From an uncultured candidate division WPS-2 bacterium (lineage in GTDB: Bacteria; Vulcanimicrobiota; Vulcanimicrobiia; Vulcanimicrobiales; Vulcanimicrobiaceae), in the NCBI GenBank assembly GCA_937910425.1, contig CALEOJ010000252.1:1-46417 (forward strand): DNA of 46,417 nucleotides. Reading direction: 5' to 3'. The notes beneath the pieces were generated by a model, which was given only the letters and a program-made list of their open reading frames with translations, ran no database searches and was not told where the DNA came from. Each line of letters starts with the position of its first letter. Within the stretch, counting starts at the first letter, position 1. The position numbers and the translations under genes are program-made. Positions 3,909 through 12,998 of the stretch are shown in pieces.

Positions 3909-4432
3909 GGCTACGTCGTCCATGCGCGTTCCGACCGTAGTCGAGGCTGGTCCGCGTCCGGTGCAGCAAGTTCGCTTGCGTCCAACCGGCGCGGTGCCGC
4001 AGCCCCGGATAGAGCATGCTCTCGAACGGCGTCGCCTTGGCCTGAAGCGCTGTCATGAGCCGCGTGGAGTTCTCGAAGATGACGTGGTCGTCGGCCATGC
4101 CGTGGATCAGCAGCAGCGTATTGGGCGCCAGGCGATTCAGCCGCGCGGTGAGATCCGACGCCGCGTAGCCGGCCGCATTGTTACGGCAGCGTCTTCACAT
4201 AGGTGACGCCGGCGAGTTGATCGGCGACGTCCCACGTTCCGAGTTTGCGATCGATCGCGGTCTTGAAGGCGACCGAACGGTTCGGCGTACCGTGGTTGTC
4301 GAGCGCGAAGAGGATGAAGCCCGCTTCGCGCTTGCGCGAGCATCCGGCGCGGCTCGATCGCGCGGCCGGCCGCATCGGGCGCGACCAAGAAGCCGTTCTG
4401 AGCGAACTCGGCCTCGGCTACTAGGAAGCTGA
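3889..4432 (-). pseudogene. Decayed S9 (dipeptidyl-peptidase IV-like) peptidase, C-terminal domain
   Basis: Pieces of one alpha/beta-hydrolase domain are spread over several frames. First MLAQARSG (about 4320-4342), then after a frame change near 4320 FILFALDNHGTPNRSVAFK to YVKTLP and a stop at 4181, then NAAGYAASDLTARLN from about 4188, with LLLIHGMADDHV (catalytic Asp) and MLYPGLRHRAGW (catalytic His). In intact DPP IV-type enzymes some 60-70 residues, including the nucleophile motif GWSxGG, lie between KTLP and NAAGY; they are deleted here. No beta-propeller is present. The gene is therefore dead: frameshifted, internally deleted and truncated. The assignment rests on known family motifs. 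Confidence 0.8.
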
Positions 4433-4462
4433 CCAAACGGCACCCAACTTGCGAGGGGAGCT

Positions 4463-5656
4463 ATGCCGCGCGTAACCCTCTCCTATCGGCGCGACGACTC
4501 GGCGGGGATCGCTCGCCTTATTTTTGAGCGCCTCAAGCCTCGCTATGGCGCCGATTCGGTCTTCATGGACATCGACGCCATCGAGTTCGGCGAAGACTAT
4601 CGCGACAAGATCCATCAAGCGCTGGGACAGACCGACTTTCTCCTCGTGCTGATCGGTCCGCGCTGGCTGGGCCCGACGACGGGCGGCCGGAATCGCATCA
4701 ACGACGCGACCGACCCGGTGCGGATGGAGGTGGAGCGGGCGTTGGAGATCGGTCTGCGCGTCGTGCCCATCCTGCTCGAGAGCACGCCGATGCCGGGTCC
4801 CGACGAACTGCCCGGGACGCTCGGCCGGCTCCCGTTCCTCAACGCGGCCGAGGTTACCGCGGGGCGTGAGTTCGACGGTCAGATCGACCGCATCATCCGC
4901 TTCATCGACCGCACGTTCGCCAAAATCGAAGCGCGCCGCGCGCGCGAGCCAAAGCCCGAACGGCCGCCGGTACGCGTTGACGACCCGCCGCCCGTCGGGC
5001 CGGTCACCCCGACGCCAATCGTCGGGCCGACCACTCCGCCGCGAACCGTCGCCGCACGCTGGTCGAACAGGGCGCTCGTCGTGGGCGGCACCCTCGTCCT
5101 GGTGTGCGTCGTCGGAATCATCGGACTCATCGGACTCGTGAGGTCGAACGGGCACTCCGGCGGGTCCATTGTTGCCGTCGCCACCGAACAGCCGACAGCG
5201 GCGGCCACCCTCCAGGTCTTCTCCCTGCCGACCACGGCGCCGGCCACCGAACGGCCGACAGCGGCGCCGACGCTCAACATCTTCTCCCTGCCGGTCGGCG
5301 CCGCGCCGGCACGGCGCGGCGCCGCGGTGCCGGCCGGATTCGGCGTCATGTACCCCCGATTGAGTGGCCTGTTTTGGAAGCCGACGCAGTGCCGCCAGAG
5401 CGGCAGCAGCGCGCAGGTCGGCATCCAGATCTTCAACGACTACCGCGCGAGCGTCAACACCGACGTCGCGTTGACGAAGCAAGTGGCCAAGTTGGGGGCA
5501 AGTGACTGGCTCCCGGGGCGTCGGCGTTTCGCACCGGGATTGAGTCCCGCGTTCGGCCGCACCATCGCAAACTTCAGGTGCCGGCAATCAGTGGTTTCGG
5601 GGCTGCGCAACGTGCGGTTCGGCGCAGACAGCGGGCCCTACGTCCGTTATTACTGA
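4463..5656 (+). CDS. TIR-domain protein with a membrane helix and outer C-terminal region
   Basis: A 397-residue protein. Residues 3-150 form a bacterial TIR (TIR_2-type) domain: VTLSYRRDDSAGIARLIFE, then DSVFMDIDAIEFGEDY, DFLLVLIGPRWL and RMEVERALEIG, where the Glu of RMEVE is the likely equivalent of the NADase glutamate. A Pro-rich linker (165-195) leads to one membrane helix (about 204-226, LVVGGTLVLVCVVGIIGLIG). Beyond it come two copies of a 16-residue repeat and a C-terminal region of about 100 residues with two Cys that I cannot assign. The start ATG has GAGGGGAG upstream. Possible roles are NAD-based signalling, defence or a membrane scaffold. Its 3' end overlaps the convergent CHASE2 gene. 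Confidence 0.85.
   Translation: MPRVTLSYRRDDSAGIARLIFERLKPRYGADSVFMDIDAIEFGEDYRDKIHQALGQTDFLLVLIGPRWLGPTTGGRNRINDATDPVRMEVERALEIGLRVVPILLESTPMPGPDELPGTLGRLPFLNAAEVTAGREFDGQIDRIIRFIDRTFAKIEARRAREPKPERPPVRVDDPPPVGPVTPTPIVGPTTPPRTVAARWSNRALVVGGTLVLVCVVGIIGLIGLVRSNGHSGGSIVAVATEQPTAAATLQVFSLPTTAPATERPTAAPTLNIFSLPVGAAPARRGAAVPAGFGVMYPRLSGLFWKPTQCRQSGSSAQVGIQIFNDYRASVNTDVALTKQVAKLGASDWLPGRRRFAPGLSPAFGRTIANFRCRQSVVSGLRNVRFGADSGPYVRYY
5183..5293 (+). repeat. Two 48-base in-frame repeats within the TIR gene
   Basis: Bases 5183-5230 and 5246-5293 encode TEQPTAAATLQVFSLP and TERPTAAPTLNIFSLP, a 16-residue unit with a 63-base period in the segment just outside the membrane helix. This is a recent internal duplication of a low-complexity stalk. 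Confidence 0.8.
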
Positions 5657-6000
5657 GTCTTTGCCGGCTGAGGTTCTGCCTGTGCAGGCAGTTTCTTGAT
5701 GCTGTTGGTGGCCTGACAAGGAGCGAACTCGACGTCGAGGATGACGGCGGCCGGATGTTCGTTCGCGCCCACCAGGCGGTCGAGCACGCGGGCGATGTTG
5801 CGTCGATCGCCGGCAACGTCGGCGGTGTCCCACGGGACGTCGACGATCGCAACCTGCTGCGAGAACGTCGGCGCGTGGTGCGAGCTGAGCCATTCGAACA
5901 CCGCCCAGTCCCACTCGTGGGGCATCCACAAGGCGGCCGCGGCCATGATGACACCGTACGCGGCGAGCAGCGCCGCGACGCTGCGCGCCCAGCGGGGCAC
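5650..6000 (-). CDS. Truncated CHASE2-domain protein
   Basis: A 116-residue protein with an N-terminal membrane anchor (ARSVAALLAAYGVIMAAAALW) followed by the first part of a CHASE2 extracellular sensory domain: VAIVDVPWDTA, the helix NIARVLDRLVGANEHP and AVILDVEFAP. CHASE2 domains normally run for about 250-300 residues, end in further membrane helices and feed a kinase or cyclase. Here the protein stops after about 60 residues of the domain with a Gln/Pro-rich tail and overlaps the end of the TIR gene by seven bases. It is probably a remnant, although a short secreted stub cannot be excluded. Confidence 0.6.
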   Translation of the reverse strand: MPRWARSVAALLAAYGVIMAAAALWMPHEWDWAVFEWLSSHHAPTFSQQVAIVDVPWDTADVAGDRRNIARVLDRLVGANEHPAAVILDVEFAPCQATNSIKKLPAQAEPQPAKTQ

Positions 6001-6025: not shown

Positions 6026-7042
6026 CTACACGAGCTTTCCGGTCGTCCTTTCGAGCATCTCCCACCCTTTGGAATCGTATTGATCGCGCCACTCGCGATA
6101 GAGGCCCGAGGCGCGGATCACTTGGCTGAACGGTTCGAGCGCCGGGCGATTGAACACCATCCCGTCCGCGGTGAGCGCCGCTTCGACGCTGACTTCTTGC
6201 GTTGTCATCGACTTCGTCGCCGCGGTCGCGGCGGCCCCGAACTCTCGATCGAGAACGTCTTGCACGTTCTTCGGCAGGCGTTGCCAAGCATCGGCGTTCG
6301 CGAAAAGCAGGTACGAGAGGCCGCTGTGATGCGTCAGCGAGCAGTACTTGACCTGTTCGTAGAACTTGAAGTTGCGTACGGTCGGCAACGGCACTTCGAT
6401 GCCGTCGATGAGGTGCGTCTGCAGCGACGTGTAGACTTCCGCGAGCGTGATCACCGTCGGTGACGCTCCGAAGGCCTTGAACGTGCCGACGTCGATCGGC
6501 CCCGGGGGGACGCGGATCTTGAGACCCTTGAGGTCCGCCGGTGCGTTGATGGGGCGGACGCGGTTCTGCACCTCGAAGAAGCCGCCGTAAAAGGACGTGT
6601 CGAACTTGCGAAGGCCGATCTTCGCGCCGGCCTCCCCGATGTACGCGCCGAGCGGACCGTCCGCGGCGGTTTGATACTGTTGCGGGCCCTTGAAGGCGAA
6701 CGGCATGCTGAGCAGCGCGGCCGACGGGATCACGGATCCCATGATGTTGTTACCGATCTGGACGAACTCGATGGCGCCGGACCGCAACTGCGCCAGCATC
6801 TGCGGGTCACCGCCGAGCAGGCTGCTGGGGAACAGTTTGATCTCGATTTGGCCGCCCGAAGCGTCCGCAATGCGTTTGATCGCCTCGGCCGACTGGACGT
6901 TCATCGGGTGCGTCAGCGTCTGATCGTTCGCGAGCTTGTAGGTGAATTGCGCCGCGTCGCCCGGCCACCGAAGGACGCCCACGGAGGCGAAGGCACCGGC
7001 ACCGGCACCGATCGAGAGCAACCGTTTCCGAGAAAGAGTCAT
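6026..7042 (-). CDS. TRAP transporter substrate-binding protein, DctP family
   Basis: A 338-residue periplasmic solute receptor. It opens with a Tat-like leader (SRKRLLSIGAGAGAFASVG; RK in place of the twin Arg) and then YKLANDQTLTHPMNVQSAE. Family landmarks are QLRSGAIEFVQIGNN, LSMPFAF, NRVRPINAPADLKGLKIRV with the Arg that usually binds a carboxylate, ASPTVITLAEVYTSLQTHLIDGIE, and KYCSLTHHSGL. TRAP systems import organic acids using an ion gradient and need DctQ/DctM membrane subunits; none is present here, so this receptor is an orphan or works with a distant transporter. It diverges from the SDR operon. Family call secure, ligand unknown. Confidence 0.93.
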   Translation of the reverse strand: MTLSRKRLLSIGAGAGAFASVGVLRWPGDAAQFTYKLANDQTLTHPMNVQSAEAIKRIADASGGQIEIKLFPSSLLGGDPQMLAQLRSGAIEFVQIGNNIMGSVIPSAALLSMPFAFKGPQQYQTAADGPLGAYIGEAGAKIGLRKFDTSFYGGFFEVQNRVRPINAPADLKGLKIRVPPGPIDVGTFKAFGASPTVITLAEVYTSLQTHLIDGIEVPLPTVRNFKFYEQVKYCSLTHHSGLSYLLFANADAWQRLPKNVQDVLDREFGAAATAATKSMTTQEVSVEAALTADGMVFNRPALEPFSQVIRASGLYREWRDQYDSKGWEMLERTTGKLV

Positions 7043-11069: not shown

Positions 11070-12998
11070 CTAAACGCCGAGTGCGGTGAGTCCGGCCCGA
11101 GCCGGTTCGCGCTGGAGAACGTCCGGACAATCGTGCGCGGCGAGCCCGTAGAGCCGCGCGGCGTCGTCCTTCGAGCCCTGCAGTGCGTAGTATTCCGCCG
11201 TGTAGTAGTTCGCCAAGCACACGTGAACCCGTTCCGTCACCGGATTCGGATTTCGCGCGGCGGCGAGCGTCGCGGCCGGCGAGCTCTGCCCCAGGAAGAG
11301 CCGCACGATCGGAGCCGGCCAGGCGTTCATGTCGAGGCGCTTCGCCGCTTCGGGGAGGCGGCTCGGCACGTGGCTCCGGCGATCCACGAGCTCGACGAGG
11401 AGCGCAGCGTACGCGTTCGTGGGATCGACGGAGGCGGCTTTTTCGAAGTCCGCTCGTGCTCGACCGAGCGGACCCGCGTACAGAAACGCCATCCCGCGCA
11501 CGATGTAGGGGTACGGCAGGTTGGGCGCTACCCGAACCGCGGTCTCATAGTCGGCGAGCGCGCGGCCGCGGTCGTCTTTCGCGCTGTACGCCAGCCCGCG
11601 ATCTTCGTAGACCGCGGCCACCGACGGATCGAGGCGGAGCGATTGCGTGTAGTCGTCGATCGCCCGGTCGAGATCGTTCTTTTCGCTGTACGCCAGCCCG
11701 CGATAGAAGTATCCGTCGGCCATCGCCGGATCGACACGCAGTGCGGCAGTGTAGTCGGCGATCGCCTTGTCGACGTCACCTTTTCGTTTGTTCATCACGC
11801 CGCGATTGAAAAAGGCGTCGACGTTCTGCGGATCGAGGCGAACCGCCGTGGTGTAGTCCGCGATCGCGCGATCGTCGTCTTTCCGGTTGCCGTACGTGAT
11901 CCCGCGGTTGTAGTAGAAGTCCGCTTCCGACGGGTTCAGCCGTATGGCCTCGTCGTAGTCCGCGAGGGCGCGGTCGTAGTTCCTCAGCAGGTCGTAGGCA
12001 TCACCACGATCGCTGTACGCGTCCGCGAACTTCGGATCGAGCCGAATCGCCTCGTCGTCGTCGGCGATTGCTTGCTTGTAGTCGAGCTTGTTGTAGTAGA
12101 CGTCGGCTCGATTGTAGAACGTTACCGCGTCGAGCGGGTTCAAGCGAATCGCTTCGTTGAACGTCTCGAGCGCGCGATCGTAGTCGCCTTTGTCGTCGTA
12201 GAGCACGCCGCGATTGTTGAGCGCGGACGCGATACGTTCGGGATCCCCGCTCTCGCGGGCCAGGGTCAGCTGTGCATCGTAGAGCACCTGCGCTTCCGTG
12301 GGCGACCGAAACGTCTTGGCCGGCGTCGGCGCGTCGGCGGCAAAGGACACGCTCGCTGTACGAGCCGGCGTTATGACGTCGACCGTTCGGACGACGTGAG
12401 ACCGGGCCGAAGCGGCGGCAGCCGATGTCTCCGAAGATTGCCGCGCCGTCGCTCGACCGGGTCCGCTCGCCTCGTCGATTTGAAGTCTTGCCGCGTATCC
12501 GACGTCGACCGCGCCGCGCTTGCACGCGAACGTCACCTTCCGCCCCGACGTGTCGACCGAGAACACGGTGCCGCGCGCCGACGCGGTGAACGTCTGACCG
12601 TATTTCACCTGAAAGAAATTGAGCGCGCCGTGAACGACCGAGAACAGCGCGCTTCCGTGCGCCATACTCGAACGCTCGCCGGCACCGGTCTCCACGAACG
12701 TGAAGCTCGTATCCGGGCGAAGCGTCGTCGTGCTCTTCGCATCCGTCGAGGCGATCACGACGGTCAACCCGAGGGGGACGTCGATGCGTGCCCCGTCCGG
12801 CAGTCTCTGCCGCACGGCCAGCGCCTTGGGACCGCCGCTCGGAAGAGTCACCGTGGCGAAGCGGGTCGCGCCGGGCTGCGTGTGGATCTCCGTCACGACG
12901 TGCTGCCGAACGGCGGCGCCTGCCCCGGCGTCCCCGAACGCGACGAGGGTCGCGGCGAGGCTGAGACAGAGAAGCACGGACTTCGTCGTCGATCCCAT
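11070..12998 (-). CDS. Secreted FecR-domain protein with eight TPR repeats
   Basis: A 642-residue exported protein. The signal peptide SVLLCLSLAATLVAFGDAGAGA comes first, then a FecR-like beta domain (about 115-200) with GSALFSVVHGALNFFQVKYG and ARGTVFSVDTSGRKVTFACK. Eight consecutive 34-residue TPRs follow, such as ALNNRGVLYDDKGDYDRALE and ending DEAIRLNP, then a helical tail. Start chosen at ATG 12998, with GGAGG nine bases upstream; the open frame extends much further but without signs of coding. FecR/TPR proteins of this layout are thought to act as extracytoplasmic scaffolds or stress-linked regulators. No sigma factor or fecI is nearby. The TPR region gives 102-base period repeats in the DNA. 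Confidence 0.85.
   Translation of the reverse strand: MGSTTKSVLLCLSLAATLVAFGDAGAGAAVRQHVVTEIHTQPGATRFATVTLPSGGPKALAVRQRLPDGARIDVPLGLTVVIASTDAKSTTTLRPDTSFTFVETGAGERSSMAHGSALFSVVHGALNFFQVKYGQTFTASARGTVFSVDTSGRKVTFACKRGAVDVGYAARLQIDEASGPGRATARQSSETSAAAASARSHVVRTVDVITPARTASVSFAADAPTPAKTFRSPTEAQVLYDAQLTLARESGDPERIASALNNRGVLYDDKGDYDRALETFNEAIRLNPLDAVTFYNRADVYYNKLDYKQAIADDDEAIRLDPKFADAYSDRGDAYDLLRNYDRALADYDEAIRLNPSEADFYYNRGITYGNRKDDDRAIADYTTAVRLDPQNVDAFFNRGVMNKRKGDVDKAIADYTAALRVDPAMADGYFYRGLAYSEKNDLDRAIDDYTQSLRLDPSVAAVYEDRGLAYSAKDDRGRALADYETAVRVAPNLPYPYIVRGMAFLYAGPLGRARADFEKAASVDPTNAYAALLVELVDRRSHVPSRLPEAAKRLDMNAWPAPIVRLFLGQSSPAATLAAARNPNPVTERVHVCLANYYTAEYYALQGSKDDAARLYGLAAHDCPDVLQREPARAGLTALGV

Follow-up and report, generated by a model that had tools for sequence, protein, structure and literature searches.

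Characterised bacterial TIR defence proteins mostly respond to intracellular signals. The locus studied here raises the question of how a TIR domain comes to be joined to a membrane helix and an outer part, and how this protein (P0001) relates to the broken gene (P0002) that converges on it. The window, that is, the whole stretch of 46,417 nucleotides that was analysed, is contig C252 of the genome of a soil bacterium (3.6 Mb in 408 contigs), and the relatives compared with it were metagenome-assembled Candidatus Eremiobacterota. An earlier note on this DNA had read P0001 as a minimal receptor and P0002 as a cut-off CHASE2 sensor. In this study, with a probability of about 0.6, we believe that P0001 is a membrane TIR NADase of receptor plan lying at a rearrangement junction, that P0002 is the relic of an unrelated CHASE2-3TM-TIR receptor, and that intact receptors of the latter kind stand in a conserved FecR-TPR module. 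The features are collected in Table 1.

Table 1. Features of the locus, with positions in the window.
Feature	Position	Strand	Basis or remark
Remnant of DPP-IV/S9 peptidase gene	3937..4328	-	Keeps about 131 of 754 residues; flanks the TIR gene on the left
TIR-TM-stalk-ectodomain protein P0001	4463..5656	+	397 aa, ATG start; ORF and translation, TIR_2, orthologue L012:6001-7221 at 71%
TIR domain of P0001, residues 1-153	4463..4921	+	Pfam, SARM1 match by sequence and fold, conservation
Putative catalytic Glu89 codon of P0001	4727-4729	+	
Single transmembrane helix of P0001, residues 205-223	5075..5131	+	Hydropathy 2.85; model helix 203-228
Pro/Thr/Ala-rich stalk of P0001	5180..5293	+	Direct repeat D1
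C-terminal part of P0001, residues 285-397, predicted extracytoplasmic; conserved C310 and C373	5315..5653	+	Orthologue comparison
P0002, 5' piece of a receptor gene of the CHASE2-3TM-TIR kind (TM1 and start of CHASE2)	5650..6000	-	Homology covers 5707-6000
Hairpin CTGCCTGTGCAGGCAG resembling a terminator, with TTTCTT after it, between the two convergent genes	5676..5691	+	Weak
Exported FecR-TPR protein, homologue of the CHASE2-TIR partner	11070..12998	-	No CHASE2-TIR gene beside it

TIR domain of P0001

The Pfam model TIR_2 (PF13676) spans residues 4-126 of P0001 (E 8.1e-9; 36.4 bits against a cut-off of 28), and the best sequence matches in the PDB were SARM1 TIR domains (E 1e-8), with similarity over residues 2-150. 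SARM1 chains also came top when the predicted model was searched with Foldseek, with TM-scores of about 0.8 as normalised to the isolated TIR targets. In our own reading of the sequence alignment, Glu89 falls on the Glu of the SARM1 KEI motif in the alpha-C region, which we take to be the catalytic E642. The earlier note had pointed to Glu89 and Glu91 together; both were numbered correctly, but in the alignment of 12 P0001 relatives only Glu89 is invariant, and Glu91 varies. A survey of TIR domains reports that more than 70% of all TIRs carry a Glu at the catalytic position and that it is critical for NADase activity, but also that its presence is no guarantee of activity, as it is frequent in TIRs for which none has been reported (PMC7075850). 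By family, fold and the position of Glu89, the TIR domain of P0001 appears to be SARM1-like and of the NADase type, as had been suggested, and it would be expected to act on NAD+.

A TIR domain 70% identical to that of P0001 is fused to an apparent P-loop ATPase region (GSGGVGKT) in another genome (L007:1501-3486, G039). The P0001-type TIR subfamily reads as occurring in two immune-type architectures, and TIR with P-loop ATPase is a typical immune one. PADLOC gave weak TIR matches only for P0001, and no defence gene directly adjoins it; a role in immunity or against phages may nevertheless be proposed.

Membrane plan, stalk and outer part

P0001 has one hydrophobic segment (residues 205-223), and AlphaFold puts a helix at 203-228; together with the TIR_2 match and the full-length orthologue described below, this bears out the description of a TIR protein with a membrane helix. 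Four Arg stand among the ten residues that precede the helix region, against one after it; they cluster in RTVAARWSNR and are rare in RSNGH just behind the helix. Because this bias fits the positive-inside rule, the TIR domain is predicted to lie in the cytoplasm and the stalk and Cys-containing part outside, the same topology as had been predicted earlier. The stalk had also been described as duplicated, and it does contain a 51-nt direct repeat (5180-5230 and 5243-5293) whose copies are 86% identical; the repeat copies are arranged differently in the orthologue. P0001 has three Cys, namely C215 inside the helix, C310 and C373, and the last two are kept in the orthologue, so that a single disulphide C310-C373 in the outer part is plausible. 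AlphaFold gave a pLDDT below 50 over most of residues 285-397, both in the model of the whole protein and in that of the part alone (two runs, with 8 and 2 sequences), and the outer part had no sequence match in the PDB. When 117 genomes of the class were searched for homologues of the outer part, the orthologue alone was convincing and the remainder was noise.

Evolution of P0001

Among 11 genomes of the genus, a full-length orthologue was found in one other, from a different species (G008), where it is 71% identical end to end. The TIR parts of the two proteins are 94% identical, with changes at the three codon positions of 4:4:19 and a dN/dS of about 0.16, a pattern that carries the signature of selection on a protein. 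Residues 285-397 are 56% identical, with changes of 29:30:23 and an NG86 dN/dS of about 1; these rates come from a single orthologue pair, and in GC-rich DNA dS is underestimated and the NG86 dN/dS overstated. The linker and stalk are likewise 56% identical, with changes of 44:32:41. Changes at positions 1 and 2 against position 3 were 8:19 in the TIR part and 59:23 in the outer part (Fisher p 2e-4), and the TIR pattern also differs from that of the linker and stalk (Fisher p 1e-3). By these comparisons, the TIR domain appears strongly constrained, and the linker and outer part appear to change fast.

The even spread of changes in the outer part and its NG86 dN/dS of about 1 would also be expected if the outer part were under relaxed constraint and P0001 were a plain membrane-tethered TIR, without outside sensing and activated from the cytoplasm, and the presence of a full-length orthologue in only one other of the 11 genus genomes points the same way. 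We regard this as rather unlikely, as the 112 aligned codons of the outer part show no stop, frameshift or internal gap at 24% DNA divergence, and as both Cys, Trp305, Trp349 and the motifs MYPRL, GLFWKPT, FNDYR and APGLSP are retained in both proteins. The outer part thus seems to evolve fast yet stay protein, and on one pair diversifying selection and relaxed constraint are indistinguishable.

Truncated CHASE2 gene beside P0001

P0002 encodes 116 residues on a gene that is convergent with that of P0001 and overlaps its end by seven bases. We rejected the idea that it is a stand-alone CHASE2 gene, since P0002 alone had no Pfam match and its relatives show an origin in a CHASE2-TIR gene. Its nearest relative is a full-length CHASE2-TIR protein (L061, genome G053) on a branch other than that of the intact copy in the window's own genome, with 60% identity over residues 1-98, the GTG start included (E 2e-36), and its similarity to the other CHASE2-TIR copies is lower. 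P0002 is homologous to the start of a CHASE2-3TM-TIR protein of about 563 residues over about 97 residues and breaks off midway through the CHASE2 fold. The homology ends at 5707; the final 19 codons, which overlap the hairpin, have no match. The rest of CHASE2, TM2-4 and the TIR pieces of the parent gene were found nowhere else in the window. The convergent gene is thus a cut-off CHASE2 gene, as the earlier note had it; the notion of a sensor fragment holds for the truncated CHASE2, but the parent was a CHASE2-TIR receptor and not the missing ectodomain of P0001. P0001 and P0002 lie on opposite strands, and only the TIR fold is common to the parent receptor and P0001. The region of the hairpin CTGCCTGTGCAGGCAG folds no better than shuffled sequences, and the hairpin is at best a weak terminator candidate for the P0001 gene.

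P0002 is most likely a dead relic. That it works as a short membrane protein, for example as a decoy or dominant-negative partner of an intact CHASE2-TIR, is quite improbable: it has kept its start codon, TM1 and open frame, with a dN/dS of about 0.3 against the intact copy of the same genome that covers mostly the time before truncation, but it ends mid-fold with an unrelated 19-residue tail, it lies at a junction beside other gene debris, and no second truncated copy was found in the relatives.

Rearrangement junction

The S9 peptidase remnant on the left consists of residues 661-743 and 556-603 of 754, with a 173-bp deletion between them, and the gene is intact in G008 (L012:818-3079), where it carries DPPIV_N and Peptidase_S9 (Pfam). 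Both cut genes are on the minus strand, and on the sides that face the TIR gene the S9 remnant lacks its N-terminal part and P0002 its C-terminal part. The TIR segment homologous to G008 runs from window position 4413 to 5644 and fills the gap between them. Because the S9 remnant abuts on the left and the cut CHASE2-TIR gene on the right, P0001 can be placed at a rearrangement junction, and the rearrangement between sensory genes suspected earlier finds its counterpart in this flanking debris. The TIR gene of G008 has an SDR gene on one side and hydrogenase genes on the other. In G002, SDR, PdhA and PdhB lie together as in the window with no TIR gene, and for this reason we consider the TIR segment accessory. 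We infer that the TIR segment was moved and that flanking DNA was deleted. No convincing flanking repeats that would point to a mechanism were found around it. A mobile element was rejected as the explanation on the same lack of repeats; P0001 was also absent from phages, and matches in plasmids covered the TIR part only. Beyond P0002, the window carries a lone TRAP-type solute-binding protein of the DctP family (6026-7042, minus strand), with no TRAP permease among the neighbouring ORFs.

Intact CHASE2-TIR receptors and their neighbours

The earlier note had proposed a search for full-length TIR-CHASE2 pairs in relatives, and they do exist, as single fused proteins. A profile search of 149 Eremiobacterota genomes returned 14 full-length CHASE2-TIR copies in 10 genomes, plus the P0002 fragment. 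The window's own genome holds an intact copy on contig C282, in an ORF that carries both the P0002 match and the best TIR match of the genome. From its likely start it has 578 residues, with TM1, CHASE2 (E 8.5e-10), three more hydrophobic segments within residues 320-401 and TIR (E 2.8e-14). The CHASE2 model (PF05226) scored 39.1 and 36.9 bits in L020 and L023 against a cut-off of 26.3; a CHASE2 match in Pfam at E 1e-3 or better was obtained for 6 of the 14 intact copies, the others being divergent. The TIR Glu is present in all 14, within PYCRFEI in most.

In 12 of the 14 copies, the next gene encodes an exported-looking protein with a FecR-like region and, after it, TPR or Sel1 repeats (tblastn and Pfam), the two without it being L066 and L070. 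The two genes overlap by 4 bp at their starts in five loci (L062, L064, L067, L071 and L072). Genes for TPR-S/MAP3K_TRAF_bd proteins occur near CHASE2-TIR in L071 and L072, patatin genes in L060, L071 and L072, and SLATT-like genes in L060, L062, L063 and L071-L073, the Pfam support for the last being weak and mostly below the cut-off. The N-termini of the SLATT-like proteins in L062, L063 and L072 carry GVTGHRDL, which we read as a SLOG motif. SLATT, TPR-S and patatin neighbours are typical of conflict systems, and SLATT beside TIR has been predicted to be a membrane-effector pairing in phage and defence contexts (PMC9503650). By gene content and order, the intact receptors seem to be part of a conserved module with the exported FecR-TPR protein and conflict-system genes.

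Two further arrangements were noted at these loci. In the window's own genome (L071:2198-9585, C282) and in G008 (L072:1927-9308), the genes run SLATT-like, TPR-S/MAP3K_TRAF_bd, CHASE2-TIR and FecR-TPR with patatin close by, and this run looks like a multi-gene conflict system. In another genome (L070:5848-10001, G039:C16), a divergent CHASE2-TIR gene has an RHS-repeat gene immediately upstream.

A full-text literature search, incomplete in coverage, returned no description of a CHASE2-TIR fusion, and one paper assigns CHASE2 to caspase proteins rather than to TIR (PMC8195603). None was found in plasmids, nor outside the phylum in 399 and 400 genomes from the phyla of Candidatus Accumulibacter and of an Anaerolineales genome, a weak negative, since few candidates were scored per genome and no positive control gave a signal. 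The parts of the CHASE2-TIR receptor are known, but we could not find its combination and neighbourhood described.

The orphan FecR-TPR protein

In the window, the FecR-TPR gene lies about 5.4 kb from that of P0001 on the opposite strand, and in G008 the pair is about 0.9 kb apart with the SDR gene between. Within the genus, this orphan type is confined to the two genomes that hold P0001 or its orthologue. The protein may be a partner of P0001, or both may merely ride on one syntenic block. The former would make a two-part system in which P0001 replaces CHASE2-TIR as the membrane partner, in line with the role of FecR-TPR/Sel1 as the usual CHASE2-TIR partner, the shared distribution and the short distance in G008. 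We find such a system unlikely, because the genes share no operon in either genome, because synteny alone could account for a co-occurrence in two genomes only, and because the outer part of P0001 has no similarity to CHASE2.

Proposed mechanism and meaning

In our preferred reading, with P0001 as a receptor-plan membrane TIR NADase, a cytoplasmic SARM1-type TIR would be joined by one helix and a flexible stalk to a fast-changing outer part, probably with one disulphide. An event at the outer part, either a ligand or a damaged envelope, would most likely cluster P0001; the clustered TIR domains might then assemble and hydrolyse NAD+ or produce a cyclic ADP-ribose signal, and the loss of NAD+ or the signal would halt the cell or trigger other effectors. 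A wider and speculative scheme, which we consider improbable, is a module like the Toll receptors in which the exported FecR-TPR protein senses the envelope and activates CHASE2-3TM-TIR, whose NAD product drives SLATT, TPR-S or patatin; P0001 would be an independent second receptor that uses the orphan FecR-TPR protein after the loss of CHASE2-TIR.

In a plan that resembles Toll receptors, CHASE2-TIR would couple a classical external sensor with a TIR enzyme across the membrane, with a conserved exported partner, and, if active, it would offer a directly testable case of envelope sensing answered by NAD+ chemistry. P0001 would represent another way of arriving at this plan of sensor, membrane and TIR, and the cut CHASE2-TIR gene at its side shows that rearrangement drives turnover among these receptor genes.

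Comparison with known systems

The earlier note had treated a membrane TIR as exceptional among bacteria, and this was not supported. Seven named TIR loci were recovered from genomes, of which L012 is the orthologue and L016, L017 and L018 show the same order of TIR, helix and outer part; L016 belongs to Anaerolineales, with a weak laminin-G match, and L017 and L018 to Thermoleophilia. In the window bacterium's own family, at least five other loci among those sampled (L093, L095, L097, L098 and L099) have one helix soon after the TIR domain, with several in L092; the CHASE2-TIR copies are further membrane TIRs. The five proteins form a separate set of TIR proteins and have about 130-200 further residues. 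The plan of TIR, helix and outer part thus recurs in other bacteria, with P0001 as another example of a known plan.

P0001 has in common with SARM1 and the prokaryotic TIR NADases the fold, the sequence over residues 2-150 and the position of the catalytic Glu. In contrast to SARM1, its TIR domain is N-terminal, it has a membrane helix and outer part and no ARM/SAM regulation, and its activity is putative. Animal Toll-like receptors also combine a single span with a cytoplasmic TIR, and this comparison concerns the way of working only: in P0001 the domain order is opposite, with the TIR domain first and nearest in sequence to SARM1 and not to TLRs, there is no LRR, and we do not claim that the receptor plans have a common origin. 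Thoeris ThsB and TIR-SLATT systems share a TIR enzyme with P0001, and SLATT-like genes near TIR genes are also seen at the CHASE2-TIR loci. P0001 itself was rejected as ThsB, since it scored 31.8 against a cut-off of 220 for the NCBIfam model and no ThsA-like gene was noticed among the neighbouring ORFs. For the CHASE2-TIR loci, the parallel is the BiofilmReg operon of Burkholderia, in which FecR stands beside a CHASE2 receptor with histidine kinase output (PMC5192318). Both have TM1, CHASE2, three TM segments and a cytoplasmic output with an exported FecR-domain neighbour, whereas the output is a histidine kinase in BiofilmReg and TIR in our loci, the partner carries LysM in the former and TPR/Sel1 in the latter, and the neighbours of CHASE2-TIR are conflict-system genes.
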